From the IMG/VR virus record IMGVR_UViG_3300025030_000239, positions 1-40,187 of that record: a DNA stretch of 40,187 nt; one strand, 5' to 3'. Positions 1 through 40,187 of this stretch are shown piece after piece (position 1 is the stretch's first letter; each line of letters begins with the position of its first letter). Made by a program: the position numbers and the translations under genes. The notes beneath the pieces were generated by a model. That model was not told the origin of the DNA. It saw only the letters and a program-made list of their open reading frames with translations, and searched no databases. This DNA is from a virus.

Positions 1-10
1 ATATACTTGA
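1..10. other. Fold-back artefact at contig end
   Basis: The first ten bases are the exact reverse complement of 62-71, and bases 1-8 do not match the sequence preceding the same repeat at 40062. This is best explained as a read or assembly fold-back at the contig end. Confidence 0.5.
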
Positions 11-631
11 AAAATCCCTGTTTGAGTTCTTTATAGATTGGTTAAAATCAACCTGATTCTGTCAAGTATATGTATTATAATCTGCTCTTGCTCTTTGTAT
101 ATCAAGGTCTGCTTTTTGAGTTTGCCAGTCTAGATTTTGAGTAGCTGATTTATAAGAAGTTTCAAGGTCTGCTTTTTCTCTTGCTTTTTGCTCTAGATCT
201 CTTTGAGTTTGAATATTATAAGCATCTGTCTGAGTTTTTGTATAATCTGAGTATCATTTATCAAAAGAAGCCATATAATCGCTTGTTTTATCATCTGTGA
301 AATTATTTGCAGTATTATTGAAGGCACTGTTTGGATCTTTTCATCAACTAGCCTTATTATTTGCTAGAAATTGATCGTAAAATGATTTTTTTCATGCTTC
401 TGATAATGATTCGTAATATTGCTGATGATTCGGATCTGAGAATTTTGGAGCATTTCAGCTAGCAGGCATTCAACTTTGGTTATTGCTCCAATTATCCTGA
501 TTAACATAATTTTGAATTGTCTTCAGCTCAGAGCTATTATCTCAGTATTTATTTGAAAAAGCCTTTAATACTGCATCTACAGATCAAAGCTTTGCTACTA
601 AATTATCAAATTTTTGTTTATCTACTGCCAT
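1..631 (-). CDS. Internal virion-like coiled-coil protein, N-terminal part (gene crosses the circular join)
   Basis: This is the 5' part of a gene starting at 631 that runs off base 9 and continues at 40187, ending at 39581. Joined, it is 1,104 nt and 367 residues with UGA read as Gly. The protein is rich in Asn, Gln, Asp and Ser and has a long helical middle (about residues 125-190) with a Gln/Arg/Ala heptad-like pattern. No enzyme motif is seen. It lies between tail-fibre genes and a large virion protein, the usual place for podovirus internal or ejection proteins. That role is inferred from position. AATTAACTA lies just before the ATG and no Shine-Dalgarno is present. Bases 1-8 are not part of the gene. 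Confidence 0.85.
9..134 (+). repeat. Terminal direct repeat, left copy (circular overlap)
   Basis: These 126 bases are identical to 40062-40187. The gene at 631 reads in frame through the join, so this is the overlap of a circular assembly. A true terminal repeat in the virion cannot be excluded from sequence alone. Confidence 0.9.
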
Positions 632-653
632 AATATATAGTTAATTAATTTTA

Positions 654-809
654 TTATACATTTTTTTCTTTTTTATCAAGCTCTTTATCTATATTTTGCT
701 TATCAAGTTCTTGAAGGTATACCATGCATTCATTATATGCAGGTACTTCGTTTCATTTAAGGTCTACTCTAGACATAAATTTCATAAGATTTATTACAAT
801 AGGATTCAT
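654..809 (-). CDS. Small conserved podovirus-type protein, 51 aa
   Basis: ATG at 809, TAA at 654, one in-frame UGA. The N-terminus (MNPIVINLMKFMSRV, then DLKGNEVPAYNE) resembles short proteins that sit beside fibre and internal virion genes in other podoviruses. The C-terminus is Lys/Asp rich (KELDKKEKNV). It starts just past the stop of the upstream 57-aa gene, so the two are probably co-translated. Function is not known; a structural or assembly role is a guess from position. Confidence 0.75.
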
Positions 810-813
810 ATAT

Positions 814-1005: not shown

Positions 1006-1884
1006 TTAAGCATAAGGATTACTTCAAGAAGGGAATATATTTTTATATCAATCTGAAGCTATATATCCTATATGTTCATATCAAAAGTTTGAATCCATCC
1101 AAAACATTCAAGGAGTTTGTCAGCTTACTACTGTTGGACTAGGTCAATTTGAAAAAGCTGATGCAAATTGTCTGAAATTGTATGGAGCACCATATTTAGT
1201 TCATCATCATACCCAAAATACATTACTTCAATCTATCCATATTTTTCAGTTATATTGAGTTCAAACACTTCAATAACTTACTCAGTTTCTAGTATGAATA
1301 TGTGAATTTGCAGAAGTCCACCTTAAATCGTTTCATTCTACCCAAATCATTCATGGAGTGTAAGATTCTACTATTGAAGGTACATTCGTCATTGATATAC
1401 TTGTTTCAGTATTTTGACTGAATCATCATCAATCAGCTATTCAGTAAACCTTGTAAGTACCTGAAGTATAAACCTCCCATGAAGCAAGTCAAGTATTTGA
1501 TGCTATTTGTGAACTAGACCATGCTATAGCATCTGCTAAATATGGACAATTAAAAGAATAATCTCAATTTATAAAATAATTTGTTCATGCAGGATTTTTC
1601 CATACTTGTCTTATGGGTATTATTCATCATGCATAAGGTCAATGTACTGTTATTACTGTACTAACTGCACATATTTCCCAACCATTCTGAAATCAAGATA
1701 AATCAAAACTTGTTGCTCATCATATAGAATTTAACATTCCTTCAGTTTCACTATAACTTGAATTATTATCAAATATATTTGTAACAGGCATATTAAAAGA
1801 CGTTCAAAACCATGTCATTTTTGTTCAAGAGGTCTTATTTGAAAACCCCTTTGCTACATTATTTGTTATTGTCATTGTTGCCAT
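1006..1884 (-). CDS. Tail fibre / receptor-binding protein, 292 aa
   Basis: A Gly-, Ser-, Asn- and Trp-rich protein starting MATMTITNNVAKG, predicted all-beta. The composition fits a tail-fibre tip or adhesin. By hand count 31 of 37 glycines are UGA, the most extreme recoded usage seen here, with runs of three UGA codons in a row (for example DGGGF and VGGGT). ATG at 1884 overlaps the upstream fibre gene, whose TAG is at 1886. Together with the 491-aa and 828-aa proteins it forms the adsorption module. The exact receptor role is inferred. Confidence 0.8.
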
Positions 1885-1885: not shown

Positions 1886-3361
1886 CTAGTAGAGGTTAGA
1901 TCATACTGGTATTTTTAGTCTATATTCACAATTTACCGTTCAATAAACATCAGTAGAATCATTAAATATAGTATTTCAATTCATTATTATTCCAGATCAT
2001 CAACTATAAGGTCAAGATCAATCTATATATAAATAATCATATACTCAAGAATAATCTTGTATGAAAATCCTTCAGTGTATTTCATTTTCAAAAGTACTTC
2101 TAAATTGTAGCATTCAAAGTCATGACTGATCAGATAATTCAACATATCAATAAGTATTGGATGTTTTTATTGTTCATCATGTAATTGTCGCAGAGCTTGT
2201 TATGCTTCCTGTAAATGTTCAGTTTACTGCGTATATATCTCATTTAAAAAATGCACTTCAATCTGAAGTTTTTACCTCAAATTTTTTATCGCTTCCATAA
2301 TATCATCTTATACCTGCACTATCCATTACAATACCTGTCGAAGGATTAGTCCCAGAAACAAAATCATTGGTTGTAAGCCACTGAGCATATCTATTACTTG
2401 AATTTAATGCATTATATCATCTGCCTGCTCAAGTTTTTTCATTTGATGTAGTCTTTACATATGTACTTCAATTTGATATATTATCAAGATTTCATGATAA
2501 AGAACCTATACTTAATGCTGATACGTTTGTAATATATGAAGCATTTATATTACTTCAAGATCATGTGTTCAATGTTCATACTATACTTAGTGTACTTGAA
2601 TCCCATGTCAATTTGTTTCAAGCTGAATTACCAATTGATAATTTATAGGCTCACGATGAATTTCAGAGAAAAAATCAAGTTCATGTATCATAAGCCACCT
2701 GACCTCATTTTATATAACCTGAAGAATCAATAGTCATATTTCAGGCTGTAATGCTTCACAGATTTGCATTTATTGCTGATAGGCTTGTTACACTTATTTT
2801 TGATGCAGTTACAGAGTTTGCCTGTAGCATATTTGCAGTTATAGAATTTGCAACTATATTATCCGAAATAATAAGGTCTCATAAGGTTCAAAGTATCTTT
2901 ATTCATGCTTTATTTGCTGTATCAGTATTTGGTTTGCTTATAGCGATTATTATTCCTCAGTTTGTTACTGCAATTCAAGCATCTGTAGTAGTCTGAATAG
3001 CAGTAGGTATATCATCTTGCCAATAGAAATAGGTCTGAGTAGTCATATCAAAGCTACCTGAGCTTATTGCATATTGCACACTTCAGGTAGATGTACCGAT
3101 ATTTATAACTCATGAGGTCCATGTTATCGTGTTATAGTCGGATGCAGTTATTACGGAAGTTATAGTGAAATTCGATAGTGAACCTCATGAAGTAGTAAAC
3201 CAATTCTTTCAGTCAAAGAATTTTGTTGTTTGTGTTGCAGGATCAGCCCATATAGTATTTGCAGTAGGATTAATAGGTTCATAATTAAAAACCACTTGTT
3301 TATTTTTAAGTAGTTCTAAATCTGATCTTAGTTTTGCTATAGCATTATCGTATGAACCCAT
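1886..3361 (-). CDS. Tail fibre protein, 491 aa
   Basis: Starts MGSYDNAIAKLRSDLELLKN, a short helical N-terminus of the sort that docks fibres to the tail. A long beta-rich Gly/Ser/Thr/Asn part follows, with repeated pieces such as SANIVANSITANML and ASKISVTSLSAINAN, typical of trimeric fibre shafts. Most glycines are UGA. It lies directly downstream of the propeller-like tail protein and overlaps the next fibre gene. Fibre identity rests on composition, repeats and neighbourhood, not on a recognised domain. Confidence 0.8.
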
Positions 3362-3363: not shown

Positions 3364-4983
3364 TTATATTACTTTAGGTAATGGATTGTAAAATGTTTCG
3401 TGTGAAATAAAACTAGGGCTTCATTCACTTGTAAACTCGTATTTATACGTTAAATATCTTCATCTTTTATTATTCATGAGTCTTATTTGTCCTGTAGACA
3501 TAGAAAAAGCTCATTGGCTTACTAGACTTCATTCATCCACTCATACAGAGATTGTAACATTTTTTGCAAGAGCTTTCCAATTTATATAGTCTCTTTCGTA
3601 AATTTTATAGACGTTTTTATCTCATTGGTGCTTCTTCCCTGTGGTTATATCGCAAGCAAAATATACTCCGTCATCTGTAGAACCTCAAACAATGTATGTT
3701 TTTGTTGCAGATCCGAGATAAACGAATCAATTATTTATGAAAGAATCTACTATATTTTCAGGATAAACAAGTCTTGTCCATACTGTAGTCCTTTTCTTGA
3801 AACTCTGATCGATATCATAAACAAATACTTCATTTCAGATAGATAGATGATACCTATTGTTTATTAGCCACCCTGTAGCTTCTGAGAGTTCCTGTGCAGT
3901 GTGTGCAAGTATATCTGAGTTAATATCTATAGAAAGTGGCAATCATTCGTCTGTGGATGAATTTTCAAGGGTATTTATAGAGTAAACTCAACCGACTCAA
4001 AGAAAGAAATTCCAATTATTACCATGAGCTACACTTTTTGGAGCAATACAACCAATAGCTGTGTCGACTGGAATAAGCTGAAATTCATCCTCGTTGTAAC
4101 CTATAAGCCTATAACGTGAATTTTGCTTATAAACAATAACGTCTTGCAAGTTCTTTGTAACCTGAGTAATGATATCTCAGTCTTGATTTATAGGGATATA
4201 ATTATCTTTCGGAAAAAAATCAGTTCATAGATTTGACATATAAAGATAATCTAAATCTCTTCTAGCTCAGAATAATCTGTCATGCTGTACTTCTAGTGAA
4301 TGGAACTTAGGCATTGAAAGGGTAGTGAGAGTGGTTCAGTCATATTTGAATACTGAATCTGTACCATTTGTAACTATTACGTGTGGTGCTACTGCTCGGA
4401 TATCGTAAGTAGAGGTTGCATCTGGTGTAGTTTCAAATACTCAATCAATAAATAGTGTAGTAAGATCATTTGAAGTTATTGTTTTTTCTTGTCCTGATCC
4501 TGTACCTCAAGTTATTCTGAGAACCTTTGAAGCATATGCATTTATTGTCATTCATCCACCTGAAGGCTCGAAAGTTCTTGTTGTACTGTTTGCTGTACCG
4601 GTACCACTTTTAAGCGATGCTGTAGTAAGGTCTGAACAGTTGTAAGAAACTATTACTGAGCTTAGATTTGATACTGTGCTTACATCAGTCCATGTTGTAG
4701 TTACTAACTTCTGGAATTTTGTTCAAAAAACCCTGACTAATATATCTCAGGACTCTTTTTTAATTACTCATTGTGCATTTATCTTTGCTGTACCTGTTTG
4801 AGTTCAGTAAGTTGTTATTCAAGACCTGCACTCGAAACCTAAATCAGTTGTATAAATATTCTTGCAGTCAATGAATTTACTCTTTTTGATAAGAGTAGGA
4901 TCATTTGTAGAATCTAGACCGTTTGTTAATTGGAATAGTTCTGAGGGGTTATTTCTTCTCGCAGGTTTATAATTTATTGCCAT
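3364..4983 (-). CDS. Packaged-DNA stabilisation / tail needle-hub-like protein (P22 gp10 type), 539 aa
   Basis: Starts MAINYKPARRNNPSELFQL and looks like a beta-propeller with repeating strand patterns. It includes a segment typical of phage DNA-stabilisation proteins: VQHDRLFGARRD, then DIITQVTKNLQDVIVYKQN and a PVDTAIGCIAPKSVA stretch at about residues 320-345. P22 gp10 (about 470 aa) plugs the portal ring and is a propeller; length and gene position (after a small connector, before fibres) agree. UGA=Gly is needed throughout. ATTAATAG lies before the ATG at 4983 and no Shine-Dalgarno is seen. Family assignment is by resemblance. Confidence 0.75.
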
Positions 4984-5574: not shown

Positions 5575-6129
5575 TTATTTAATATTCATATTTTTTACTC
5601 ACTCGATTATTCAGTCTATAGCTTTTAATCTGATAGCTTTAAGATCCTGGGTATTTGTAACAAATCAAAGTTCTACAAGCAATGAAGCACATTTTGTATC
5701 TCTTACGAATCAAAGTCTACCCCACCTACCAGCAGTATCAGGATTTACGTGTCTTGAAGGTTCTCAGGTTATTTCGGTGTATTTCTGTAGGAATTGCCCT
5801 CCTTCTCATTTAGTATATGCATTTCAGTCTAAAAACCAAACACTAGCCCCACGAGCAGTAATAGGTCATGCATCTAAGTGAAGTTCAAAAGCAAACGGTT
5901 CAAGTTCTTTAGGGAATCTTTTATTTATCCATGCTATCCTATCAACCAAAGAAAGACCCAAAGGAACTTTTATTAATTTAACTCAAGGAATACCTTTAGT
6001 TATCAATCAATTGATAATAAGATTTGTTTCGGTAGCTTCGTTTGTATTGTTTGCTGAAGCTCATTTGTCTATAGCTCATTTTGGAGACTTAGCCCAGTTA
6101 TGTCAAACACTTAAAATCAGAGTCTTCAT
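5575..6129 (-). CDS. N-acetylmuramoyl-L-alanine amidase endolysin (Amidase_3), 184 aa
   Basis: A single-domain zinc amidase that would cleave the bond between MurNAc and the peptide stem at the end of infection. Visible signatures are SVGHN (His10), a Glu at 31 or 34, FELHLDAG (His84) as the remaining zinc ligand and VELGFVTN with catalytic Glu153. The Gly of VELGF and the Gly preceding His10 are UGA codons at positions where the family has glycine, which supports UGA=Gly. No signal peptide is seen, so export would rely on the nearby holin (6348-6857). No separate cell-wall-binding domain is present. Confidence 0.9.
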
Positions 6130-6347: not shown

Positions 6348-6857
6348 TTAAAGAGTATTATTTTTTGTATCTTCAGTGGTTTTAGGATTGCACTCAGGAC
6401 TATCAATATCGGTTATTCTTCTACATTCTACACTATCAATATAATTTTTCAATTTATCTACTATTATTGCAGGAATCGGTATTTTTAATCGTATAAGTTT
6501 ATGAAGAAGGTCTAATGCTAGATTTCATCATAATACAGTTACGATTATATTATGGAATCAAAGTAATATTTCCTGATGAAAAATAATTATATCCGTTCAG
6601 TATGATACTCAGATTCAAATTGTAATTCAAATCATTTTCCAAAATCATTTCCATGCCTTCTCTTTACTTAATGATCCTGTCATTATAGCCCAGTGGAGTC
6701 ATAAGAGATAATCCATAAGCATGAATCATATTACCCATTTTAATTGTAAGTCCCAACCTCACATAAGTGTTCAAAGTGTTCAGAGTATAAGTGTTATTCA
6801 AAGTTTTAACTTATTCATTATAAATAATGATTGTACATAGATTAGGACTGATTCCAT
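6348..6857 (-). CDS. Phage holin (TcdE/phage holin_4 type), 169 aa
   Basis: Three or four hydrophobic segments occupy the first 125 residues, and a segment LMDYLLGLHWAIMTGSLSKE (about 48-67) matches the LDYxxGxxxA...GxLSS signature of the TcdE/holin_4 family. Many membrane glycines are UGA. It would form the inner-membrane lesion that releases the amidase encoded downstream. The long hydrophilic tail after about residue 130 contains two Cys (VECRR, PECNP). A second in-frame ATG (MNKLKLG) 14 codons in could give a shorter form, as in dual-start holin systems; no proof here. Confidence 0.8.
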
Positions 6858-6897: not shown

Positions 6898-9384
6898 TTA
6901 CATTGCAGTTGTTCTTGATAGCTCAATTGCTTGAATTCAATCACTTACAAAATTCAAAGTAAAGTATTTTGCATCTGATGTCCCAGTTGCTAGAGTTCCA
7001 GTTGTCTTGAATCAAGTTGCGAAAGTCAAAGTATAGGATGATGTTCAGCTTGTTTTTACTATAATACTGAATTTCTTTCAAGCACTCGGAACTTTGAGTA
7101 AATTTATATTTCAGGTCGCTATGGGAACTACTAGAAATGTATCGGCTTCAGTTGTAATGTCAGGAGCTGTGAATATTGTAAATCAAGGAGTTGTAAGCTG
7201 TTTGATGTTGCTTATCTCTTTCTTTATATCCCTAATATCATAGCTTATTCCTTGATATTTGTACATTGACACGATACCTTGCTGTAAACTTCAATCTTTA
7301 TCACTAGAAGAGTTATAATCGTTACTGGATGAAAGAAGTCTGTTTTTAGTTATTGTGATGTCTGTGTAGATAACTGGAAGAAGTGTAGAGGATATTGTCA
7401 GACTTGCTCAGTCTGCTTTTGTAGTGTAAGTTACTCAGTCAGCACTCAGTTTAACTGTACTTGCTGAATCTTCACAGTTCACTTCTAGGAATTGATATAT
7501 CCCTTCTGCGTATTCTATAGCAGGGAAACCATATTTAGTAGCTCTGTAGGTTGCAGTTGTGGTTGCAGTTTGTAGTTGTTTAGTGTAGGTTTGTAGTATT
7601 GATTTGTTTGTAGGGAAGTTGTAGAGAGTTTTAATACTAGATGTGTCAATATTCAATTTGAAACTGAAACTTGCAAATCAAGAATATGAGGCAATTTTTA
7701 CATAGATAGTTTTTCTTCCTGTAGGCACTCAAACTCAGTAAGTTATATTATCAAGTGAATAAGTCAAAACTTTGTCGCTTGTAAATATTCCTGATAGTAT
7801 GTTTGTAGGACAATTAATTTTACAAATCAAATCACTTCAAGAAATGGTATAATTCTGTAAATATTGAGTTCAGAAAGTTTCTGTATAGTTTACAACTCAA
7901 TTCACTAGGTCTACTTTGCTTCCGTTTAAAAATCAATCCTCATCAGCTTTCAAAGAAAGACTATCTCAGTTAAGAGAAGCATTGAAAGAAGTGGTAGGTT
8001 TGTAGTAGAGAGTTTTGAAATATAAATCATAATTTACAGTAGACCAAGCAGATGAGTAATATCCTTTAAAAATTCAAGCATAGTTTGTACTTGCTGAAGT
8101 TGCTCTAAGTCTTGCATTATTTGTAGCATCTGTTGTAGATGACTCTATTACTACATAATAATTACTTCATATAGTCAATATACAAGGCAGTACTACTGTA
8201 AAATCTGTATCTACTGTTAATGCTTCCCATTGTACATTTGTATATGTATATGATGCCTTAATTACTCAGTCTGGGGCACTTCAAGTATCTCATTGTATAC
8301 TTATTGTAACTGTTCAAGTAAAAGTTCAGTTATCTGCAATTCTTTGTAATACTACTCAGGTAAATTTACTTTTTGTAGGTATTATCTGCATTGCTATTTT
8401 TGTAGGATATGTAGATGAGCTTCAATCTCCTCAAAAGTTTCTAGCATCGTTTTTTGTCAATTGACTCTGGTCTATATTATCCGTACTTCCTATTGCAGTA
8501 AATCATACTACTCATTGCTCTTTAGTAGTAAGGTTGTCGTTAGTTGTTTCGATAATTTCGTCAAAAGTCATAGAGTTAACATCAAACCAAGCATCTGATA
8601 TATTTCAGGCAGTATTATTCATCATAACTATCTGCATAAAATTTGCTGTGCTTCCAGAAGTAGCTGTTACTGTACATAAAGTCCAATCATTCGTTCAAGT
8701 TAATTTGTTACTTTCACTTGCAACTAGAAAAGAAGTTCCATTATATGTTTCTAGTTTTACAAATACTCAGTTTGTTACTGCTGTCGTGGTTTTAACCCAG
8801 CAAGACAATTTATATTTTGTGCTAGGTTTACAAGGTATGATTGCTTGTGATGATGCGTTATTTCATATAAATCAAGCAATTCTTCAAGTAATATCAGTTG
8901 TAGAAAGTTTAAATGTTAATCTTCAAGTTCTCTTAACTGCACTATCTGCTTCTGCACTAGCTCATGAAGCTGTCACTCATATTCTAATTCATAATGCTTC
9001 ATTATTTTCTAATTGTCAACTAGTAGTTCTTGCCACATCTCCTACTGCATTATCTATACAGATATTAAGTCATCATTTAGATGAGGTTTCTGTAGTGGTT
9101 ATGGTGGGTTTTCAGTTAAGATTCACGAAAGACGGAGAACTTGTAGTATTCAATGCCTGATCGAATGTAAAAGTTGTGGAAAGTTCCCAAGAATCTCAAT
9201 CCCATAAGTAAATACCTAAAGGACTTTTGACTACTGCCATATCTCAGATATTCAGATCCGTTACTGGCAAAGCTCAAGTAGTTGCATAATCTCAAATAAA
9301 ACCTTCTATTACTGAGCGTTCTATTGCATTTCAATCACTGTCTACATTGTAGCTAGTTCTTTTGAAGTCATTTACATTTCACAT
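6898..9384 (-). CDS. Large tail fibre / adhesin with carbohydrate-binding-like modules, 828 aa
   Basis: The gene begins ATG TGA, so its second residue needs the recoded code. The N-terminus (MGNVNDFKRTSYN) is followed by beta-rich modules. One, at about residues 185-300, resembles a CBM_4_9-type jelly-roll (IPCKPSTKYKLSCWVKT ... ISDAWFDVNSMTF), a fold that binds cell-surface glycans. A second such module follows, then a short helical segment (YDIRDIKKEISNIKQL) and a C-terminal beta domain. This is the best candidate for host recognition. Module borders are approximate and the ligand is unknown. Confidence 0.75.
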
Positions 9385-26784: not shown

Positions 26785-26785
26785 A

Positions 26786-27751: not shown

Positions 27752-27777
27752 TTTGATTGTTGGTTAATGGATATAAA

Positions 27778-27968: not shown

Positions 27969-27996
27969 TATTGGATTGTTAAATATTAAACACTTG

Positions 27997-28024
27997 TATT
28001 GTATTTATTTTTGTTTCTGTGTCA
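27997..28024 (-). promoter_or_regulatory. TTGACA-class phage promoter
   Basis: -35 TTGACA (28024-28019), 16-bp spacer CAGAAACAAAAATAAA, -10 TACAAT (28002-27997). It precedes the RHH-coiled-coil-annealing operon. Confidence 0.75.
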
Positions 28025-28032
28025 AATTTATT

Positions 28033-28530: not shown

Positions 28531-28548
28531 TTTTGTTTTGGTTATGAT

Positions 28549-28911: not shown

Positions 28912-28926
28912 AGTTTTATTTGTTAA

Positions 28927-29463: not shown

Positions 29464-29479
29464 AAATATAAATTAATAA

Positions 29480-30262
29480 TTAAAAATCATTTCAAACTAT
29501 AACATATCAAGTATTTTGTTTTGGTTTTTGTATATTTTGAATATTTTTTAAAGGGAATATTCCTTGCCAACCATTCGCAATAGAATTATTTAGAATCTCA
29601 ACTGCAATTTCTTTATTATTTCAACTTATTTTTTCCAAATTTTTTATAAAAGCTTGTTTGCTTCATTCTTTTATCGGTTTTTTTAAATCTATCTTTCTAA
29701 ATTGTATAAATTTTCATAAGGTTTTCATAAGTTTAGTTTCAATAGAATCATTTTCATTTATTTCAAAATTATCAAAATCTTTTTCTATATCTTTTTTAAT
29801 TATATCTTTAGATATATTTACTTTACTTTTCTTTACTTTACTTTTCTTTACTTTACTTTGTGTATTATCGTTGACGATAATTTTCTTTATCTCTTGTTTT
29901 CGCTGTGATAATCTTTCTTTATCTCTGTTTCTTTTAGCGATAAGACCCTCAAATCTATCTATTAGCTTCTGACTATAAATTATATTTCAATCTTGTTTTA
30001 AAAGTGATAATTTTAATAAATAATCTATAATTTCTGAAAGATTTAGTGATCATATATCAAAATCTCATCCCCATAATTCTAAATTTAATTCATTTATTTC
30101 TAATTTAAAATTATCAGCATCACATAGTTTTTCAAGAAACATATTCCATATTGAAAATCAAATGTGTCAGAAATTTTTCCTTAATGCTTTTATTTTATCG
30201 TCATTTCTCATGTCATTATCATGAGAAAAATAATCTGCATTGTTTTTGTTTGGTCTTGCCAT
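29480..30262 (-). CDS. Replication initiator-like protein (DUF4373/DnaD-like), 260 aa
   Basis: Starts MARPNKNNADYFSHDNDMRN and continues DDKIKALRKNFGHIGFSIWN, the recognisable N-terminus of DUF4373-type phage replication initiators (winged-helix DNA-binding). The C-terminal half ends ILNNSIANGWQGIFPLKNIQ, the DnaD-like helicase-loading part of this group. The centre holds a triple 5-residue repeat SKVKK. It should open the origin and load host helicase. TTTAATTAAA lies before the ATG. No helicase gene follows, so it probably uses the host's. Confidence 0.8.
29817..29860. repeat. Three 15-bp tandem repeats in the initiator gene (candidate origin iterons)
   Basis: TTTACTTTACTTTTC is repeated almost three times (29817-29831, 29832-29846, 29847-29860) on the plus strand. 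It lies inside the replication initiator gene, in frame, and encodes SKVKK repeats. Initiator-gene iterons mark the origin in phages such as lambda, so this is a candidate origin. Confidence 0.55.
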
Positions 30263-30267
30263 ATAGT

Positions 30268-30525
30268 TTAATTAAACAATATTTGTTCTTTTGTTTCTCA
30301 ATTTGCTATTCTTTTGTCAAAGTGCCTTTGCATGCACGCAAATAAATATTGCAGTATGCAAATTCTTACTTTTCATTCAACTCATTTAGCCTGAATTGAT
30401 TTATATTTTGATATTAAAATTTTATAACTTCATATCGTTCTTATAGATTTATTTCTAAATAATTCAGCTCTTATTATTTGTCTAGCTTGTAATCTAGCCC
30501 AATTCCAACTTCAAACCTCGATCAT
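30268..30525 (-). CDS. Uncharacterised basic protein, 85 aa
   Basis: Starts MIEVGSWNWARLQARQIIRA. Arg/Lys/Ile-rich helices with few acidic residues, suggesting nucleic-acid binding. TGA-coded glycines at several points. Directly upstream of the replication initiator and downstream of a terminator, so it may start a replication operon. Not recognised. Confidence 0.65.
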
Positions 30526-30548
30526 ATTTATTATTTATTTTTTATATT

Positions 30549-30581
30549 AAAAAGCCTCTTATTCAGCTAGATATAAGAGGC
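30549..30581 (-). terminator. Intrinsic terminator after the clamp operon
   Basis: A 9-bp stem GCCTCTTAT/ATAAGAGGC (30581-30573 with 30562-30554) is followed by TTTTT. The loop contains TCTAGCT, complementary to the loop of an upstream hairpin (30604-30624). Confidence 0.85.
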
Positions 30582-30703
30582 ATAAATTTGTTTCAAGTTA
30601 AATATTTGTTCTAGCTATACAAATTTTTAACCGAAAGTAATGAAAAATACAATCTTTTTACTTTCAAGCCCACATTATCCTATTATTTTAAAAATGCAAA
30701 TAT
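30582..30703 (-). ncRNA. Candidate structured non-coding RNA ending in the terminator
   Basis: The minus strand carries GAAAGTAA...TTACTTTC (stem 30665-30658 with 30640-30633) and ATTTGT...ACAAAT (stem 30624-30619 with 30609-30604). The second hairpin's loop AGCTAGA pairs perfectly over 7 bases with the terminator's loop, forming a possible kissing interaction. A weak TTGCAT-N16-TAATGT promoter lies just upstream (about 30700-30673). No convincing ORF is present. Confidence 0.45.
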
Positions 30704-30745
30704 ATTTTATTGCAACTTATCAATTTTTGAATATAATATATTATT

Positions 30746-31030
30746 TTAACTAAATCTGTACAAATCTAACGCATCAGGTGTACATTCTACTAATAATTGT
30801 ATTGTATGAATATCCCTTACTTTATTTCAAATACTTGCAGTTCTTTCAAAACTTTCATCTTCTTGACCTATATAAATGCACCAATCGTGAATTTCTCATC
30901 TTACTGCAACGAAATTATACATCACAGGATTATCAGGTTCATCATAGGAGTGATTGAAAGTTCAAAAACGTATAATTCAGGGTTTAGAGTTATTTAACTC
31001 TTCTACAGTCAATATTTCGTATTTTTGCAT
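30746..31030 (-). CDS. Small uncharacterised protein, 94 aa
   Basis: Starts MQKYEILTVEELNNSKPGII. Mixed alpha/beta, ends VECTPDALDLYRFS. Co-transcribed with the clamp gene, starting 8 bases after its stop. A UGA-Glu-Ile-His-Asp-Trp-Cys stretch (RGEIHDWCIYIG) is notable but is not a family signature I know. It could be a clamp partner. Confidence 0.7.
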
Positions 31031-31037
31031 AAATCTA

Positions 31038-31640
31038 TTAGTTAATTTTTAAAGGCATCACTATAGCTTTATAATCTTTGTCATCATATCAAGATACTAT
31101 TACTCAATCATTTGGGTTTCTAATCTCATAAATTACCCTTTCTATTCAGCATTCCTTAAAACATTTAAGAAGATCGATCATTATATCTACATCCAAAGCA
31201 ACCTTATTTTGCATATATCAGGATTGTATCTCTCATAAGAATTTATCTACATCTGGGAATACTCAGTTTATTAATTTAACTTTTTTAATATCTGAACTGT
31301 CAAGATCTGTAGAACATAAATCAAGCTTTCAGTTAGAATAATTTGCAATTGCTACATTATTTATAATTGGCATGAGTTTATTTTTTCAGAAATTCAGTTT
31401 TTCAATATCTGCACTTCTTATAATAATATCTTCCTTGATTTCTTCTGTGTAAACTTCTCATGGTATTTCTGGGAAGTGTTTGCTATCTTTTTTCAGCATA
31501 GGGAATTTAACTGCCTTATATGAATCAGTAGCATAGTAGAATTCATTTCTTATACAAACTCAAGCTAGAGTTGGTCTGACATTTCATTTAGCTGAAATAT
31601 GTTTTGCAATAGCTTTTATATTTTTGTCTATTAATCTCAT
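31038..31640 (-). CDS. Beta-sliding-clamp-like protein (DnaN-like), 200 aa
   Basis: Resembles the last two domains of bacterial DNA polymerase III beta: NKVALDVDIMIDLLKCF (about 136-152), CGIERVIYEIRNPNDGVIVS (about 156-175) and a final DYKAIVMPLKI, the usual C-terminal strand of clamps. At 200 aa it is shorter than the host clamp (about 370 aa). No phage polymerase is encoded, so it probably works with, or competes for, the host polymerase. Driven by the TTGACA-class promoter at 31672-31699, with TTAACCAA 7 nt before the ATG. Confidence 0.7.
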
Positions 31641-31671
31641 ATGTTTATTGGTTAATACTAAAGACAAACTC

Positions 31672-31699
31672 AATATATTTATTTTTGTTTCTGTGTCAA
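31672..31699 (-). promoter_or_regulatory. TTGACA-class promoter for the clamp operon
   Basis: -35 TTGACA (31699-31694), 16-bp spacer CAGAAACAAAAATAAA (the same as at 28003-28018), -10 TATATT (31677-31672). Confidence 0.8.
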
Positions 31700-31723
31700 A
31701 TTTAATTTAAAAAGAAAATACTT

Positions 31724-31751
31724 TTGCATTACAAGTAATTTTAAATATATT
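31724..31751 (+). promoter_or_regulatory. TTGCAT-class promoter for the plus-strand gene
   Basis: -35 TTGCAT (31724-31729), 16-bp spacer, -10 TATATT (31746-31751). Divergent from the clamp promoter, 25 bases away from its -35. Confidence 0.55.
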
Positions 31752-31784
31752 ACTTTTATCTTATTTTTTTAACCAACCTACCAC

Positions 31785-31922
31785 ATGGAAAATACAGAAG
31801 AAAAAGTAGAGGATGAAGTAGTTTCTACTACTGAAGAGACTACAGAAGAAGGTATTGAATCATCAGAGGAAGAGGTTTCAGGAGATGTTGAATCTGCTGA
31901 AGAAACTGAAACTGAAGAATAA
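31785..31922 (+). CDS. Highly acidic 45-aa protein, only plus-strand gene
   Basis: Starts MENTEEKVEDEVVSTTEETT. Of 45 residues about 20 are Glu/Asp and only one is basic (a Lys). No UGA codon is used; its two glycines are GGT and GGA. TTAACCAA lies 8 nt before the ATG and a TTGCAT-type promoter upstream. Being the only gene on this strand, divergent from the clamp, it resembles small DNA-mimic or anti-defence proteins in composition. The low-complexity sequence means no fold can be named. Confidence 0.7.
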   Translation: MENTEEKVEDEVVSTTEETTEEGIESSEEEVSGDVESAEETETEE

Positions 31923-31984
31923 TTTGATTTTTAAACCAATTTGGATATTATTTATATCGGTTGTTGGTTAACTGCAAAGATAAA

Positions 31985-32010
31985 AAGCCCCTACAGAAAT
32001 GTAAGGGCTT
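31985..32010. terminator. Shared bidirectional terminator
   Basis: AAGCCC and GGGCTT flank a shorter TACA/TGTA stem with a GAAA (plus) or TTTC (minus) loop. Minus-strand RNA continues TTTTT; plus-strand continues CTTTG. It separates the acidic gene from the 120-aa membrane protein gene. Confidence 0.75.
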
Positions 32011-32015
32011 CTTTG

Positions 32016-32378
32016 TTATTTAAAAATTATTCCATATTTTTCTAGAAGTTCTTTTTTACTTTCAGTAGCTTTTTTAATATTAACATCAATAAGTTTCTTT
32101 TTTTCAGAAATTTCAAAATATAAATCTTTTATTTCAAGATTTATTTTATCACTGTTTTTTCTTGAATCTTGAATAATTGTAATATTATTTTGTATTCAAT
32201 GATCTTGTAGAATATATGTTACTCAGAATCATAATGCTACTCAGGTTATCACAAGTCATATATATATTTTTGTTTTTGCATCCATAAATGAATTTGGTAA
32301 GGATTTATTTTCTTGTTCTTCGGAAATATCTAAGATATCTTCATCATATTCGATATCTCAATTTGGATCTAGTCTCAT
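32016..32378 (-). CDS. Membrane-anchored protein with a cytoplasmic coil, 120 aa
   Basis: Starts MRLDPNGDIEYDEDILDISE. An acidic N-terminus of about 35 residues, one transmembrane helix (KIYIGLVITGVALGFGVTYI) rich in UGA-coded glycines, then a charged coiled segment (EISEKKKLIDVNIKKATESK). May face the periplasm or form small assemblies. Last gene of its unit, ending at the shared terminator. It could be a spanin-like or superinfection-control protein; not recognised. Confidence 0.7.
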
Positions 32379-32392
32379 ATTTATTTTTGTTA

Positions 32393-32494
32393 CTCCCCTC
32401 CCCTCTTGTTGGTTCAGAGAAAAATTAAAATTTATTTGTGTATTTTAAGCCAATATATTTTTTTATAAAAATTTTGAGTAGGGTAGGGAAGTGG
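32393..32494. other. Pair of C-rich and G-rich patches around an AT-rich stretch
   Basis: CTCCCCTCCCCTC (32393-32405) and AGTAGGGTAGGGAAGTGG (32477-32494) are rough inverted repeats (about 11 of 13 match) separated by about 70 very AT-rich bases, in an otherwise G/C-poor genome. The stretch lies between two small genes. It could hold a structure or a protein-binding site. Confidence 0.45.
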
Positions 32495-32593
32495 TTATTG
32501 ACTTAATACAATTATAACTAATCATGTAAATTCTAAGATATTTATCAATAGAACTATTAATAGTGCCAGTAATATTATTCTATGTTTTTTCAT
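32495..32593 (-). CDS. Tiny membrane peptide, 32 aa
   Basis: Starts MKKHRIILLALLIVLLINIL: basic N-terminus and one hydrophobic helix with a UGA-coded Gly. The ATG overlaps the end of the 48-aa gene, whose last UGA-coded Gly it includes (GTATGA), so the two are coupled. Such peptides can be lysis- or exclusion-related; no evidence beyond layout. Confidence 0.55.
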
Positions 32594-32721
32594 ACATTAG
32601 TATTAAGATATAAAATAACTTCTTGTGGGTTTATTACCCCTGTATCTACCATGTCTATATATTGACTAATAGATATTTCTCATTTTTCTACCTTCTTTAG
32701 GTAATTGTTAACTCAGCTCAT
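32575..32721 (-). CDS. Small protein, 48 aa
   Basis: Starts MSGVNNYLKKVEKGEISISQ. Helical, with UGA-coded Gly at position 3. A TTAACCAA copy lies 11 nt before the ATG and a TTGCAT-class promoter at 32759-32787. Starts the short unit that ends at 32016. Function unknown. Confidence 0.65.
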
Positions 32722-32758
32722 TTGTTTTTATTTTGGTTAAGAAATAAACTGTACAAAT

Positions 32759-32787
32759 ATAATAAACTAATTTTAAAATAAATGCAA
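32759..32787 (-). promoter_or_regulatory. TTGCAT-class promoter
   Basis: -35 TTGCAT (32787-32782), 17-bp spacer, -10 TATTAT (32764-32759), reading into the 48-aa gene. Confidence 0.55.
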
Positions 32788-32817
32788 ATAATTATATATT
32801 GGCTTATTGATAATAAA

Positions 32818-32846
32818 AAAACCGTATAATAAATTTATACGGTTTT
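32818..32846 (-). terminator. Strong intrinsic terminator after the polyvalent protein gene
   Basis: A 12-bp perfect stem AAAACCGTATAA/TTATACGGTTTT with a 5-nt loop is followed by a T-run. It ends the long structural transcript. The A and T arms would also let it work on the other strand. Confidence 0.9.
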
Positions 32847-32851
32847 AATTT

Positions 32852-35398
32852 TTATTCTTTAGGTTTCAGAAAATTCAAGAACTTGAGAGAATATTTTGCA
32901 TTATTTGTAAGTTGTCTTTGCCATACTCAGTTTGTAGGACTCCACCTATATCAATTCTTTTTAAGTTCAGTTATAGTTCAGAAATCAGGTCTGGAATCAA
33001 ATTTTATTTGTAATCTATCAGCTCATACATTTTCTATAATAGATCATCACTCAAATTTTTGAAATTCTTTTGATTCTACTCAAGATGATTTTGCTTGCTC
33101 TGTATTTTCCATTTTAGCAAGTTTTTCTTCTCTAGCCTTTATTCTATTATTTAAGTTAGTCAAAGAAAATCAAGGTATTGGTTCTCATCATTCTTTCCTT
33201 ACTTTTATATTGTGCTGTTTTGCTGATTCTTGTTGTTTTTTCAATTGTTCAATTTCTTGTTTTACCTCATTAATAGGGTTTAATTCTTCTTTTCAGAAAT
33301 TATTTAGCTTTTTCTTAATTGATTTTGTTGCTTTTTCTTTAAAATCTATCATTGTTTCTACTTTTTTTTCATAGAATCATTGTCTTTTCTGCATTCTAGC
33401 TACTGGGAATCTTGCAGGTCAAGCAATCATTGAAGAAACTATATTGCTTCTAGATCAAAGAGCATCTTTTTTAAGCTGTGTATATTTATCTTCAAACCTT
33501 TTCATCTCATCTAATAGTAAAGATTTTTTCTCAGGAGTATCAGCATATTTTGAAAGTTCATCGTAAGTTTGTTGTAATTCTTTCTTATGTGATTCAATTT
33601 CAGATTTTGCCCTTACATCACTTGAGAAACTCGTACCTCTATGTGCGTTTTCTGCTTCCTTATAGGTTATATTGTCTCAAGGGATATAATCAGACTGTTT
33701 TGGTTCTTCTTTAACTTGCAAGGATTCTTTACTTGTTGATTCATCAGATTTTATATTTTCTTTTTCGAGTTCTTTTTTTAAATCCTTTTGGTATTCTTTC
33801 ACTTGTTCTTCTTTTGGCATAGATTTATATTTTTCCATATCTATATCAAGTTTTTTTGGTTCTTCTGGTATTATCTGTTCAGAACCTACAACTTTATAAT
33901 CAGGATGCAATTTTCAATAAACTAGATTCATAAGTTGTTGTTTACTGCTAGAAGTTATAACCTGTGGTCTATCTCATTGTAGTATTGTAGCTTCAAATCA
34001 ATCTCTTGTTTCCTTAATTCTAACAACTCAGTTATCAATTTGGTATCATACACTTCTAGTTATTGCTTGGTCTGTTGTTTCTCATGTTCTTCTTTCTAAA
34101 ATATGTGTGTATCATTCTCATTCTCAAGGTCAAAATCATTTAGGAGTTACATCTTGTATTGAATCGACTTTAGCTTTTGTTTTTTCATTCATATCCGTTT
34201 TGTTATTGGTTAGTTCGGATATCTTATTTATTTTTGTGTTTGTGTCAATATTATTTCTACTATTAACCATTTTTTGCTTTATACTAGGTTTTGCAGACTT
34301 AGGTTCTTTCATATTTGATAATGCTATATCATGCAATTGATAGTCCCATACTTCCTGAATAGTTTTATCTGCTCATGTAGTGTCTATATACTCGGATATT
34401 TCATCTACAAGCTTTTTAACTTTAGGATTATTTATATTTTGCTCGATATCACTCAGAAAATTAGAAGTCTTTTTAAGATTAAGCAATGGTTTTACTTGCC
34501 TTATAGCACTTATTAAAGATTCTGGCAATCATTCTTGCTCGGATACAGTCATTTTAGATGCTTCTTGTTTAGCTTCATCAGAAAGCATTTTATTTCATTG
34601 CTCGTTGTACTTTTCCTTGTATTTACTTAATAATTCGTCTAGTTTCTTTGGATCTTCTTTTATAAGTTCTTTGTTTCTTTCTATAGCTGTTAAAAAGTTC
34701 TCATCGGATTGTCTTTCTAGGTTAGAAACTCTTTCCTGATAATTACTATCTGTTTTGGTCTCTTTTACTGTTTTTTTTTCTGAATTGAAATTTGATTTTA
34801 CTTCAGTTTTTGCAGAACCTTTAATAATAGGGTTTACATCAATAATTGTAGGTCATGTTTTACCAACTTCTTGAGCTTTTACAACTGGTTTACCACTTGG
34901 AGCAGGTAAAGCGAGATTTTCAGGTGTTATACTATCCAAATAAGCCTGTTTTTCCTCTGCTGTTTTCTTTGCGTTGTATTTAATCTTGATATTCTCTGCT
35001 TCTGCTTCGATCTGTTTTCTTATTTTTGATACTATTTGCTTATCTTTGATAGAAAGCTGTTTTTTTGATTCTAGTTTCTGTGAAATTTCTGATAATCTGG
35101 ATTGTCATTCTTTAGATACTTTTCAAACAATACTTTCAATTGCTTTTGCTTTTATTTTAGTTATTCAGTTTTCAAGCATAGAACCTCAAATATATCATAG
35201 TCCTGCTCCGACTGCGTGTCATATAACTGGCATAATAGCTCAAAAAGAAGATCCTAAGGCAAAAGCTCAAGTATAACCTCAGATATTCTTTCATCCGATA
35301 GTTGCATCTGTCATTGCCTTGTAAAGTTCTGGCAAATTGTTTACTGCTTCGATCTGTGTTCAAATTCAAGGTTTTACCTCTTCATTCTCATTTAACAT
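32852..35398 (-). CDS. Giant polyvalent virion protein, C-terminal frame, 848 codons
   Basis: This frame is open from a TAG near 35417 to TAA at 32852. The first ATG is 35398 (MLNENEEVKPGIGTQIEAVN). Early on it has a Gly-rich hydrophobic stretch (FALGSSFGAIMPVIGHAVGA), then coiled-coil and disordered parts. Toward the C-terminus there are two large-polyvalent-protein-associated domains: YTHILEGRTGETTDQAITR, then ENAHRGTSFSSDVRAKSEIE with ARFPVARMQKRQG. Such proteins are packaged and ejected with the DNA to protect or program it. It is almost certainly one protein with the upstream frame, joined by a frameshift or broken by an indel. Confidence 0.75.
34192..34248 (-). promoter_or_regulatory. 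Internal TTGACA-class promoter and start site inside the polyvalent gene
   Basis: -35 TTGACA (34248-34243), 16-bp spacer with ACAAAAATAAA, -10 TAAGAT (34226-34221). Downstream is TAACCAA and an in-frame ATG at 34192 (MNEKTKAKVDSIQDVTPKG). An N-terminally short form carrying the two C-terminal polyvalent domains could be made. Confidence 0.55.
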
Positions 35399-37427
35399 CT
35401 CAAGATTTATAAACTAGATCTTGGACTGCATTATGAAAATCATTTAATTTATCAGCAAAATTCTTATCAAGCTCTTTCAATCATGGTATTGTTTCTTTTG
35501 CTACGGTGTCGATTCATTTTCTTACCTCTCTCATTACGTTTTGACCTCTTGAAGTGGTTGTGGCATCGTATTTAGCCATATTGCTCGCTGTTTTTCTTAC
35601 ATCTAGTGTTTGCCCTGTTGTAAGGTTTCATTTACCTTTCTCAGAATCAGCCAATATATCTTTAAAAAGCTGATTGAATTTTCAAATATCAGCAGAATTT
35701 ATTTCTCCTGCCTTAGTTCAATCAAGCCTTACTATATTTCAGTCTACTACATCCATTCAGTTTTTTCATATTGTAGTCAGGAATTTAGATAAAATCTCGT
35801 GTGCAGGTACTTCGGTTTGTAATTCTCGGATATTATTGTAAACTTGTGCATCCTCTCATCTGGTCTTGCTCATTTCATCAATAGAGTTTGTAAGCTCTTT
35901 TGTTATTTGTCAGACTCTTTCAGTCTTATAATTCTTGATATCGTCTATACCTTCATTTGATTTTGATTTTTCTACCATTAAGTTGAATTCTCAGGCTTGA
36001 TTTGGGTTTGCCTGAAGTCAGACTCTCTTTGATTCTGATAAACCTGTTATAGCAGTTGTATATAGCTTTTTAACTTCTTCAGGGATATTCTTTATGATCG
36101 CAGGAACTTTTATAGCATTTTTTGCAATTTCGTAAGGCATTTTTGCTATATCTACTGTAGATTGTCAAACATCTTTTCAGACTATCTTTGTTGCTTCTAG
36201 TACTCATTTTGCTATGCTAGGAGAATTTTTGAAGGCATCGCTAACTTTTCAGGCAGTTTCTATAGTTCATCATTTGGCTTTAAGTCAAAGGACATTCATT
36301 CATGTTGAAATAACATTTTCCATTGTATTTTCATCAAGTCCAGTAATGTCGGCAATACCTTTTCAAGTTCATTCTATGGCTTTTGATAATCATTGCATTA
36401 TATACTGAGTTCATGGAAGCTCTGAAGCTAAATTCAGTCAAGTTGCTAAAGGTGCTTTGAATGCACTGAATCAAGCAGTTGTAACTCATGCAGGTATATC
36501 GGTAAGATCAGATAACAACCCTTGGTCTCAATATTTTTCAGCATCAGCCTGATTTGCTTCATCATAAGCTTGTCAGAATGATTTTTCTCACATTGTAGCT
36601 TCCTTTACTGCTCAGATGCTATTTGATATTACATTTTCCTTTTGTACTGTATCAGCACTTGTCATAGGTTTGTAACTATCTCATTTTATAGAATATCAGA
36701 TAGCGTTTAGAACTGGGTATAATCAATAATCTCATACAGTTTTTGCAAGTACGTTATTAACTCATCTTGCTCACTTTTCAGCACCTCAGACAATTCATTG
36801 AACTGTATCTAGTAAAGCTCTTGGTATTGCTTGTACTGTTTGTTCTACTACTCATTCGTTTTTATACTGATCTTGAAAAAATGGCTCGTCTTGATTTTCT
36901 GTTTGTGATATTTCTTCAGGAGAAAAAAGTTCTGGGTAAGCCTGAGTAAGTTCTTGAATATTAGAACCTTTTGAAACATCATAAGCAAGTTGCTCGAAAG
37001 GTGTTTTATCAGTTGCTTTAAGTTCAGGATATACACTATCCATTTGATCTATAGGCATTCAAGATAATATCGCATCTCTAGCATCTTTTATAAGTTCTGG
37101 TATTACTGTAGGCTGATTTTCCTGAGGTTGTTCAGGTTGTGTAATGGGTTGTATATTCTGTGTCTGTTCATTGTCATTATTTTGTATTTTTGTACCTAAA
37201 TTAGCCACTGGATTCAAAAAATCTGGTAACTGATTACTTTGAAAACCTGCATTTTGTGCAGGTGCTCATTTTACTTGTGGTAAATCCAACGGAGAAGGAA
37301 TAACACTAGACATTTTTCAGATTGAAGATACATTATTTCATCATTTGAAGGTATTAGGTGCTTCTTGAATTGTTCAGTCAGACATTTTAATTCTTCAGTC
37401 TGTCAGTGTTTGTACTGGATATGCCAT
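35157..37427 (-). CDS. Giant polyvalent virion protein, N-terminal frame, 756 aa as read
   Basis: Starts MAYPVQTLTDGRIKMSDGTI. A Pro/Gln-rich N-terminal 130 residues is followed by long, weakly repetitive helical stretches with Gly/Ala-rich membrane-like segments (PRALLDTVQGIVGGAEKGAR; AGVTTAGFSAFKAPLATGLN), as expected for an ejected internal protein. After about 35398 the frame continues 80 codons with unusual CGG/AGG/CGC codons and no protein-like pattern, while the +1 frame carries a normal sequence. So the real coding part probably ends near 35390 and continues in the other frame. Confidence 0.8.
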
Positions 37428-37440
37428 ATACTATTTTAGG

Positions 37441-39570
37441 TTATTGATTAATTCTACCTTTGCTTTGTGAACTCCACCTATTATTTGAAGTATCTATACT
37501 AGATGAAACTGATTGATTTACTTTATCACTTGGATTTCATACGTTTAGATCTCACAGATATAATGATCTTTGTGAATCATATTTCTTTTGTGCCTGTTCC
37601 TGCACCATTTGTAACTGAGTTATTAGATTATCAGCATTCATATTCTGAGTACCACCGATAAAATCTTTTAATGCTTCCATTTCTGTAGGTGTAACGGCTG
37701 AACCTGCAAAGAATTTCCTTTGAGTAGCCTGAGAAGACTGAAGCAATGTTTTTATTTTCTGAAAATCTGAAGATTTTGCAAGTTTAGAATAAAATTCATT
37801 TACTCTTCAATCAAAAGCACCTAATTTATCTTTGTTTTTAGATATAAGAGCGACTAGTTCTTTTGTAGTTTGATTCAATACGTTCATATATGGTGTGGAT
37901 GTAGCTTCAGCTTTGTTAACGTCTGAAATTTCTCTATCAAGAGCAGTATTCACATAATTATTAAGGTTTGCAGTATCTCATTTATTTATGAAGTTTGATA
38001 CTCTAGCTTCAAATCATGAAGGAGGAGCTTTCATATTATTGAAAACATTGAATACCTGAGTTGCCTGAGGTAAATTTTTCTTATCTTCAATAACAAATCA
38101 TTTATATTTCAATAATGCTTCCTGTGGATTAAGTCAATTTGCAATCCATGTAGGTATTTGCTTTTCAATTCTTTTACTATCATAATCAGATAATTTACTT
38201 GCTCATCCTGCTCATTGTATTACAAGATTCATATAATCATCAGGAGAATAAGAAGAAGAGTTTGCTTTACTAGATGCTCAATATACACTCATTGCCTGAT
38301 TTCAAGTGATTGTCTTTCCTGTAATCTTATCTTGAAATAATCATCATTCAGCACTAGATCATATTTGTACTAGGTTTGCATCTTGCATAGGAGAATATGA
38401 AGAAGTCTGTGCAGGTGCTCATTGAACCTTTGCAGTATTCTTGATATTTTTCAATATATTTGCTGTAGTAGTTCATTTTATCTTTTGACCGTTCTTATCA
38501 AACATAGTAATATCAATAACTCATCTTCATGGTTTTGCTATTACAGTTCATGTATTCTTTTGATTTGCAAAATATTGACCTGCATTAAGTGGTTGTCATA
38601 CTTGAGCTGTAATACTTGAAGGATCTAGATGCGAGATTCTTGTTTTAGTTCCGTCTTGGTTTGTAACTTCTACATAACTTCAGAAATATTTATCATTTCA
38701 GGTAAATACTTTTGATACTGTTCATCCGAAAGGTGCTGTAACTGCAAAACCTTCGTTTCAAGCTATATCGACTCCTTCATCTCATGCGACTCTTCATCCC
38801 ATATAAGTGATTTTTCAATCTCAGTGTAGAGATATCCAATCCTCTGAAGGAGAAATATAGCTGTATGTTCAATCAGGATTCTGTACTTTTTCAGGCTTGT
38901 TAAGAGTTTTTTCAAATTCATATCTTCTGTCATCTCTTGAAATATCGAATTGATTTTGCTGTATATCCTTAGATACATTAAATTGCCTTTTATTTTCTTC
39001 AAAAGTCTTATTTCTATAATCTGTATCTGCAACGTCTTTAAGATATTGTAAAGCAACTTTGTTTTTCTCATTTTCTGCATTTATCCTTTCCTGTTCTGCT
39101 TTAGATAAAGTGCTTAATTCTCATTGATAAACATTCTCTAATTGTCATAATTGGTCTACTCTATCAGCATAACTTTTCATGTTAGCTTGATATTGTGCGA
39201 CCTTTACTCTTGGATCTATAGGTGTTCAATCTGGATTTGTAGCATTAAATATATGTGACTGATCTCAAAGCATTTGTCTTCTTATATCTTGCATTTGCAT
39301 TCTTGCACCTACCATTTTATCGGTAAGTCAAGTATTCTGTCAAATAGTCTTTTCTATCTCTGTGCTTGTAGGTCTTGAAGCTATCATGGCTCAATAAATA
39401 TCATCCATTGTTTTACCCTGAGTCTGAGCTTTTAACTCATTTACTTGAGTATCAATAGGAGGAGCTGACATAGCAGGTTTTGGAGGAGAAAATTTACCGG
39501 TTCAAATTGGTATATTTGAATTTATAACCGGTGCTGTAGTAGTTCAGTCTAAATTTACTTTAACTGCCAT
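37441..39570 (-). CDS. Virion protein with degenerate M23 peptidase-like domain, 709 aa
   Basis: Starts MAVKVNLDGTTTAPVINSNI. A helical N-terminal part with a charged coil (about 130-215) precedes a beta domain at about 260-370 whose pattern is that of an M23/lysostaphin fold: EGVDIAGNEGFAVTAP, GGTVSKVFT, a late ISHLDP. The usual zinc ligands are missing: the H of HxGxD is acidic here, and HLHFE is replaced by VIDITMF. So it is probably a cell-wall-binding or structural relic, not an active peptidase. The C-terminal 300 residues are helical with Ser/Asn-rich linkers. Part of the ejection module. Confidence 0.8.
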
Positions 39571-39580
39571 AATCTATTTG

Positions 39581-40187
39581 TTAATAAGTATAAGTTCAAC
39601 CACTTCTATAAACTGGTCTTGTTCAAGTTGTTTTGATTCCGTATAATTGATTTATCCTGTTTAATTCTGCCTGTTTTTGGTTATTTGCTTGTATAGCATT
39701 CATACTTGAATTAAATAATGCATCTCATTGAGACTGTAGATTATATTCAAGTGCCTTGCTCCCTGCTGAACGATCTGATTGATAATTTAATATATCTGTT
39801 CAAATTCTTCATGTTCATGTGTTATATTGGTCTGTAGCTCTTTGTTTTAGAGTTTGTATTTGTCATGCGTTTGTATTATAATCTGATTCAGCTCTAGACA
39901 TATTCAACGAAGCATCATCTAATTTTCTCTGATTCAATGTTTTAAAATAATTTGTATCATTTACAAATTGTCATGTTGTATCTGCTGTTTGAGTTTTCTG
40001 GATTCAACTATTTAAAAGACCTCTCTTACCATATGCAGAAGAAGCCTGAGAAAGAGCTGTAGAAAAATCCCTGTTTGAGTTCTTTATAGATTGGTTAAAA
40101 TCAACCTGATTCTGTCAAGTATATGTATTATAATCTGCTCTTGCTCTTTGTATATCAAGGTCTGCTTTTTGAGTTTGCCAGTCTAGA
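39581..40187 (-). CDS. Internal virion-like coiled-coil protein, C-terminal part (crosses the circular join)
   Basis: Continuation of the gene starting at 631. This part encodes residues from about 166 on: an Asn/Gln/Tyr-rich helical coil and a C-terminus TTGTRPVYRSGGTYTY before TAA at 39581. Its frame agrees with the left part across the repeat, and the joined length (1,104 nt) is divisible by three, which is direct evidence for circularity. The stop is 11 bases before the ATG of the next gene. Confidence 0.85.
40062..40187 (+). repeat. Terminal direct repeat, right copy (circular overlap)
   Basis: Identical to 9-134. Removing one copy gives a circle of about 40,053 bp. Confidence 0.9.

Follow-up and report, generated by a model that had tools for sequence, protein, structure and literature searches.

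The window analysed here, the whole 40,187 nt of IMG/VR record IMGVR_UViG_3300025030_000239, is very probably a tailed-phage genome that is complete, closes into a circle and uses genetic code 25 throughout, with UGA encoding glycine. Its host is most likely a bacterium of the Gracilibacteria type, and UGA appears to be tolerated at a mild cost; the probability of this reading as a whole was put at about 0.96.

When UGA was treated as a sense codon, 52 plausible open reading frames (ORFs) of at least 60 aa were found on the minus strand, whereas under code 11 just 11 ORFs reached 100 aa, four of them on that strand. For ORFs of at least 90 aa, coverage of the genome was 87.0% with UGA as sense and 13.7% under code 11. 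The original prediction had counted about 55 minus-strand genes open only with UGA as sense; their openness was borne out, but the count fell to about 48 once overlapping ORFs were removed and a gene crossing the ends of the record was counted in. The listed genes contained 590 TGA, 268 GGN and 110 TGG codons in frame, such that UGA made up approximately 68–69% of glycine codons across the phage. They ended at TAA in 44 cases and at TAG in eight, in agreement with the claim that both codons terminate genes. Seven TAG positions had been cited for this, and all were minus-strand TAG; six terminate genes of 60 aa or more, and the one at 20008 terminates a 33-aa ORF. Per 1000 codons, the coding frame contained 48.9 TGA but no TAA or TAG; the values in the +1 frame were 16.7, 40.2 and 27.5 respectively.

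The meaning of UGA was assessed by masking each such codon as X and aligning the terminase large subunit (TerL), an Acb3-like protein and a YqaJ-family exonuclease with standard-code phage homologues. Portal and capsid genes were also compared with code-25 relatives, and an HNH endonuclease gene was informative for CGA. These genes are placed as follows:

11463–12773, minus strand: major capsid protein; weak phrog_9953 and SU10_MCP matches; UGA at 10 of 42 Gly codons
13653–15446, minus strand: portal protein; PF16510 (P22_portal), E = 9.9e-9
16059–17705, minus strand: terminase large subunit, 548 aa, 23 UGA codons
24232–24894, minus strand: Acb3-family protein, predicted CBASS inhibitor, 12 UGA codons; PF25187, E = 1.8e-46
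24897–25499, minus strand: YqaJ-family exonuclease, 12 UGA codons; PF09588, E = 6.3e-25
28927–29463, minus strand: HNH/NUMOD4 homing endonuclease 3; CGA codons 89 and 150 at Arg

At the masked columns the standard-code homologues had Gly 61 times and Trp not once. TGG columns most often held Trp (23 observations), as expected if TGG still encodes Trp, and GGN columns were mostly Gly. Code-25 relatives likewise had Gly at UGA columns, in 62 instances for TerL, 24 for the portal and 11 for the capsid. Pfam scores were compared with UGA read as Gly, Trp, Arg, Ser or Cys, and Gly was highest; for YqaJ, Gly gave 88.6 bits, Arg 79.2, Ser 77.6, Cys 69.6 and Trp 64.1, while for Acb3, Gly gave 159.4, Ser 124.1 and Trp 95.3. 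The alignment and profile checks proposed for the glycine assignment therefore both came out in its favour, and the motifs that were looked up were present (HNH NHKNGIKTDNRVENLEW, YqaJ SPDG and terminase RQGG). Judged by sequence comparison, UGA is read as Gly in this phage; all three features of code 25 (UGA as Gly, UAA and UAG as stops, UGG as Trp) were found here. A reading of UGA as Trp, i.e., the code 4 of Mycoplasmatales and some phages, would leave the ORFs just as open. However, it is contradicted by the absence of Trp from UGA columns, by the position of Trp at TGG columns and by losses of 24 bits (YqaJ) and 64 bits (Acb3) when Trp is substituted; nor was any code-4 relative found, and this explanation is almost certainly wrong. 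The warning that standard gene callers fail on the genome was right for code 11, under which annotation misses most of the genes; a code-4 caller would find the ORFs, writing Trp for Gly.

Almost no gene, whether early or late, lacked UGA, and those for replication and recombination had it too, so the code would be constitutive, without a switch for late genes. The rival possibility is a recoded phage of a standard-code host that changes its code late in infection through its own suppressor tRNA; the introduction of PMC10746230 describes phages of this kind. Against this, the phage genome contained no tRNA gene and no match to an Rfam family, UGA was present in replication, recombination and early genes in addition to late ones, UGA as Gly is known only from this bacterial group, and all close relatives use code 25. 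A late switch is accordingly very improbable. Since there is no phage tRNA, the constitutive code-25 phage would instead depend on a host in which UGA is already translated as Gly, and use that host's tRNA for the codon.

The product of the Acb3-like gene matched PF25187 over nearly the full length (159 bits, against a curated cut-off of 27) and keeps the C-terminal GEGxGSWKGGTxGC block; from this resemblance it is predicted to act against CBASS (cyclic oligonucleotide-based antiphage signalling systems). The family match and the block are shared with the Acb3 family, while the 12 UGA codons are peculiar to the phage gene, and at eight of these both aligned standard-code homologues have Gly. 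All 28 IMG/VR relatives recovered for the gene look standard-code, with no sign of code 25. SMODS cyclases of the CBASS type were present in 21 of the 353 class genomes, several with in-frame TGA. This would be an anti-defence family carried into another genetic code, its conserved glycines now spelled UGA.

A second codon bears on the host. According to Shulgina and Eddy 2021 (PMC8629427), CGA and CGG are likewise reassigned in Absconditabacteria, to Trp. In the phage, CGA stood at HNH codon 89 (gene 28927–29463), where four of seven relatives have Arg (AGA/AGG), at HNH codon 150, where five of seven have Arg, and at Acb3 codon 216, where Arg occurs in five of five. The sister terminases (G021, G052, G025, L236 and L249), by contrast, had CGA or CGG where their relatives have Trp encoded by TGG. 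On these alignments the phage follows plain code 25, with CGA as Arg, and because CGA still encodes Arg the host can be narrowed from the two groups originally named, Gracilibacteria or SR1/Absconditabacteria, to what is most likely a Gracilibacteria-type bacterium and not an Absconditabacterium; the wider grouping itself stood. The meaning of CGA thereby offers a way to type the hosts of code-25 phages. The terminase genes L055, L058, L047, L236 and L249 were also seen to have CGA or CGG at the Trp (TGG) columns of relatives, and appear to belong to prophages or phages with the extended Absconditabacteria code. In one further relative (L053, contig G080:C107) CGG was unusually frequent, with nine codons, one of them in the terminase at a Tyr column.

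Relatives were sought in IMG/VR and in the 353 class genomes, which were reached through a published 16S probe, JAEDAM01. Megablast with 24 kb of window sequence gave no match among 50,697 phage records, and neither did single-protein IMG/VR searches with TerL and capsid, although an alignment query did find relatives. The closest terminases, all code 25, came from six IMG/VR contigs (L220–L225; approximately 50% identity) and from G080:C107, which belongs to a Gracilibacteria-class bin (49% identity, E = 6e-131, 27 TGA). In these, terminase, portal and capsid are ordered as in the phage wherever the contig extends far enough, but portal and capsid are just 20–25% identical and there is little similarity at the DNA level. 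For that reason the phage and these relatives probably differ at least at genus level, and by sequence it is a lineage distinct from phages in the searched collections.

A terminase tree of 12 code-25 rows and 29 standard-code rows gave the phage's own group support of 100/100. All 12 code-25 rows formed one group (93/96), and 96% of bootstrap trees required one code change. On elongation factor Tu (EF-Tu), G080 joined named Candidatus Gracilibacteria (100/99), apart from the group of G052, which may be Absconditabacteria-like because of its CGA-as-Trp pattern. In G052, a sister terminase was located within a prophage (integrase, portal and capsid) on a 1.18-Mb code-25 contig that also carries a tRNA(UCA) gene. 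The UGA share of Gly codons was 70–71% in sampled G080 contigs, similar to the 68% of the phage; for named Gracilibacteria loci of higher GC it was 12–32%. The host is most likely an uncultured, Gracilibacteria-type (BD1-5) member of the candidate phyla radiation, as far as these comparisons indicate.

An otherwise identical genome with an Absconditabacterium (SR1) host was considered. Absconditabacteria-like prophage terminases are the sister group in the tree, and in PMC10746230 most of the phages assigned by spacers to Absconditabacteria are clearly code 25, whereas 34 of the 38 longer than 20 kb that spacers assign to Gracilibacteria show no clear alternative coding. Yet the reading of CGA and CGG as Trp by Absconditabacteria (PMC8629427) is visible in their prophage-like terminases, whereas phage CGA falls at Arg columns, and the closest relative with genome context belongs to the Gracilibacteria group. 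An SR1 host is thus unlikely, and a Gracilibacteria-type host is preferred.

Several points weigh on the other side. The glycine assignment draws on sequence comparison. The call of CGA as Arg has three informative positions; CGG is very rare in the phage, and the sole informative example, TerL codon 524, aligns with T, Y and Y and is ambiguous. G080:C107, a binned contig of 15 kb, could be mis-binned. Finally, the proposed search for matching CRISPR (clustered regularly interspaced short palindromic repeat) spacers gave no match in the 353 class genomes, where scoring was limited to the top two DNA candidates from each genome. Class-wide DNA spacer searches returned matches to low-complexity or homing-endonuclease sequence, and no CRISPR array was present in the loci examined.

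The cost attributed to UGA was suggested by its uneven distribution. In the major capsid gene, whose identity is backed by gene order and by homologues downstream of the portal in L053, L224 and L225, UGA accounted for 10 of 42 Gly codons (24%), compared with 71% in all other genes (p = 1e-9). The capsids of L224 and L225 had UGA at three of 36 Gly codons, against approximately two-thirds in terminase and portal (p = 7e-9 and 3e-8); that of L053 had 27 of 43, against 66 of 70 (p = 5e-5). Among bacteria, the UGA share of EF-Tu was below that of its neighbours in 26 of 26 code-25 genomes (pooled, 10% vs. 33%), and in G052 none of the 37 Gly codons of EF-Tu was UGA. Recent acquisition of the capsid gene, or local base composition, might produce a low UGA share without selection, and the gene does diverge strongly among relatives (approximately 25% identity). 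This seems doubtful, however, given that G-C content at third codon positions was 0.216 in the capsid gene and 0.207 in other genes, that Arg codons (AGR/CGN) were unshifted and Leu codons only slightly shifted, and that the depletion recurs in L224/L225, in L053 and in EF-Tu of all 26 code-25 genomes. The simplest reading is that highly expressed genes are under selection against UGA. From codon usage, the shortage of UGA in the major capsid gene and in host EF-Tu alike would suggest that it is tolerated yet mildly costly. The broader proposal, that UGA is the slower or costlier Gly codon in code-25 organisms, such that GGN is kept in the most highly expressed genes (capsid, EF-Tu) while UGA accumulates elsewhere, stands at about even odds. 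If true, code-25 phages carry a readable record of expression level as well as of the host code (CGA as Arg or Trp). No earlier report of UGA depletion in highly expressed genes was found in a partial coverage of the literature.

With respect to genome form, the 40,187 bases of the record have an exact terminal direct repeat of 126 bp, the circular form measures 40,053 bp, and a gene remains open across the junction (position 9 joins 40061; joined frame of 1104 nt, with a single stop, at its end). The repeat and the open gene show that the phage molecule is circular or circularly permuted. Bases 1–10 are the reverse complement of 62–71, an artefact of assembly where the contig starts. Nearly all genes are encoded by the minus strand. 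Followed in the direction of transcription, from high to low coordinates, these run from replication and recombination through terminase, portal, capsid, holin, amidase and tail proteins to the joint. The early block comprises the RusA-like, replication initiator, YqaJ exonuclease, Acb3-like, NinB-like and Holliday junction resolvase genes with three HNH homing endonucleases; past the circular joint, large virion-type proteins continue up to a hairpin terminator at 32818–32846. A minus-strand 37-nt repeat, in which TTGACA and a -10-like box are separated by a 16-nt spacer (ACA-rich and common to the copies), occurs within and before the early region, and its copies are probably a phage promoter family. 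The remaining features are as follows:

1–631, minus strand: 5' part of the junction-crossing 367-aa gene, which ends at 39581
9–134: terminal direct repeat, copy 1, 126 bp, exactly equal to copy 2
1006–1884, minus strand: Gly-rich protein, 292 aa, 31 UGA codons; no family match
1886–3361, minus strand: tail protein, 42 UGA codons, TAG stop; phrog_1101, E = 1.8e-10
3364–4983, minus strand: virion structural protein; phrog_3287, E = 3.1e-8
5575–6129, minus strand: endolysin, N-acetylmuramoyl-L-alanine amidase; PF01520, E = 9.7e-9; phrog_435
6348–6857, minus strand: holin; PF05105, E = 6.6e-16
6898–9384, minus strand: large protein, 828 aa, 49 UGA codons; no family match; possibly tail-related by position
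17810–18445, minus strand: terminase small subunit; PF03592; phrog_51, E = 1.5e-15
20895, 22524, 27997, 31671 and 34220 (span 20895–34256), minus strand: five copies of the 37-nt sigma-70-like promoter repeat
21412–21804, minus strand: Holliday junction resolvase, TAG stop; phrog_190, E = 1.3e-28
22573–23169, minus strand: HNH/NUMOD4 homing endonuclease 1, TAG stop
23174–23614, minus strand: NinB/Orf-like recombination mediator; phrog_72, E = 3e-4, a weak match
25511–26131, minus strand: HNH/NUMOD4/NUMOD1 homing endonuclease 2
29480–30262, minus strand: replication initiation protein; phrog_2562, E = 5e-28; PF14297
31038–31673, minus strand: RusA-like resolvase; phrog_3007, E = 1.2e-12
32818–32846: terminator-like 12-bp hairpin immediately following the stop at 32852, where the late transcription unit is proposed to end
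32852–35398, minus strand: large protein, 848 aa, 42 UGA codons; C-terminal domain in common with a phage primase family, phrog_19458, E = 1.7e-21
35157–37427, minus strand: large protein, 756 aa, 51 UGA codons; last approximately 50 codons non-coding in appearance
37441–39570, minus strand: virion-type protein with M23 peptidase domain; PF01551, E = 9.3e-11
40062–40187: terminal direct repeat, copy 2, 126 bp, exactly equal to copy 1

Between the genes at 35157–37427 and 32852–35398 the coding signal shifts by +1 (or -2) within 35157–35398; this frame break may be an assembly indel, a mutation or a programmed shift. The three HNH/NUMOD4 endonucleases are mutually related, and relatives of approximately 70% DNA identity were present in the code-25 bins G106:C141 and G080:C107. 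As no integrase was found among the phage genes, a lytic life style seems likely. The gene set is that of a tailed phage (Caudoviricetes), with terminase large subunit, portal, HK97-type capsid (a weak match), tail and lysis genes, and the P22-type portal suggests a podovirus-like particle.

Among standard-code phages, the P22-type portal is shared with Roseobacter phage CRP-7, in which TerL is 26% identical over 83% of the query and the portal adjoins it; podoviruses of this portal type, of which CRP-7 is one example, use the standard code, unlike this phage. Relative to NCBI code 25, the phage is alike in UGA as Gly, UAA and UAG as stops, UGG as Trp and CGA as Arg, and it differs at CGA from Absconditabacteria proper, where CGA and CGG are Trp as well (PMC8629427). 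Code-25 phages of these bacteria have already been described by Liu et al. 2023 in mBio (PMC10746230). Those phages and prophages resemble this one in dense in-frame TGA, hardly any code-11 genes, a host group that reads UGA as Gly, an IMG/VR source and, for some, circular genomes. Most spacer-predicted Gracilibacteria phages in that account are compatible with code 11, unlike this phage, and only four of 38 longer than 20 kb are clearly code 25, so the closed genome adds to a small number. The passages searched in that paper do not mention CGA or depletion of UGA in the capsid gene; host typing by CGA, and the quantitative hint that UGA as Gly is costly in highly expressed genes, would be additions to what is known of code-25 phages.

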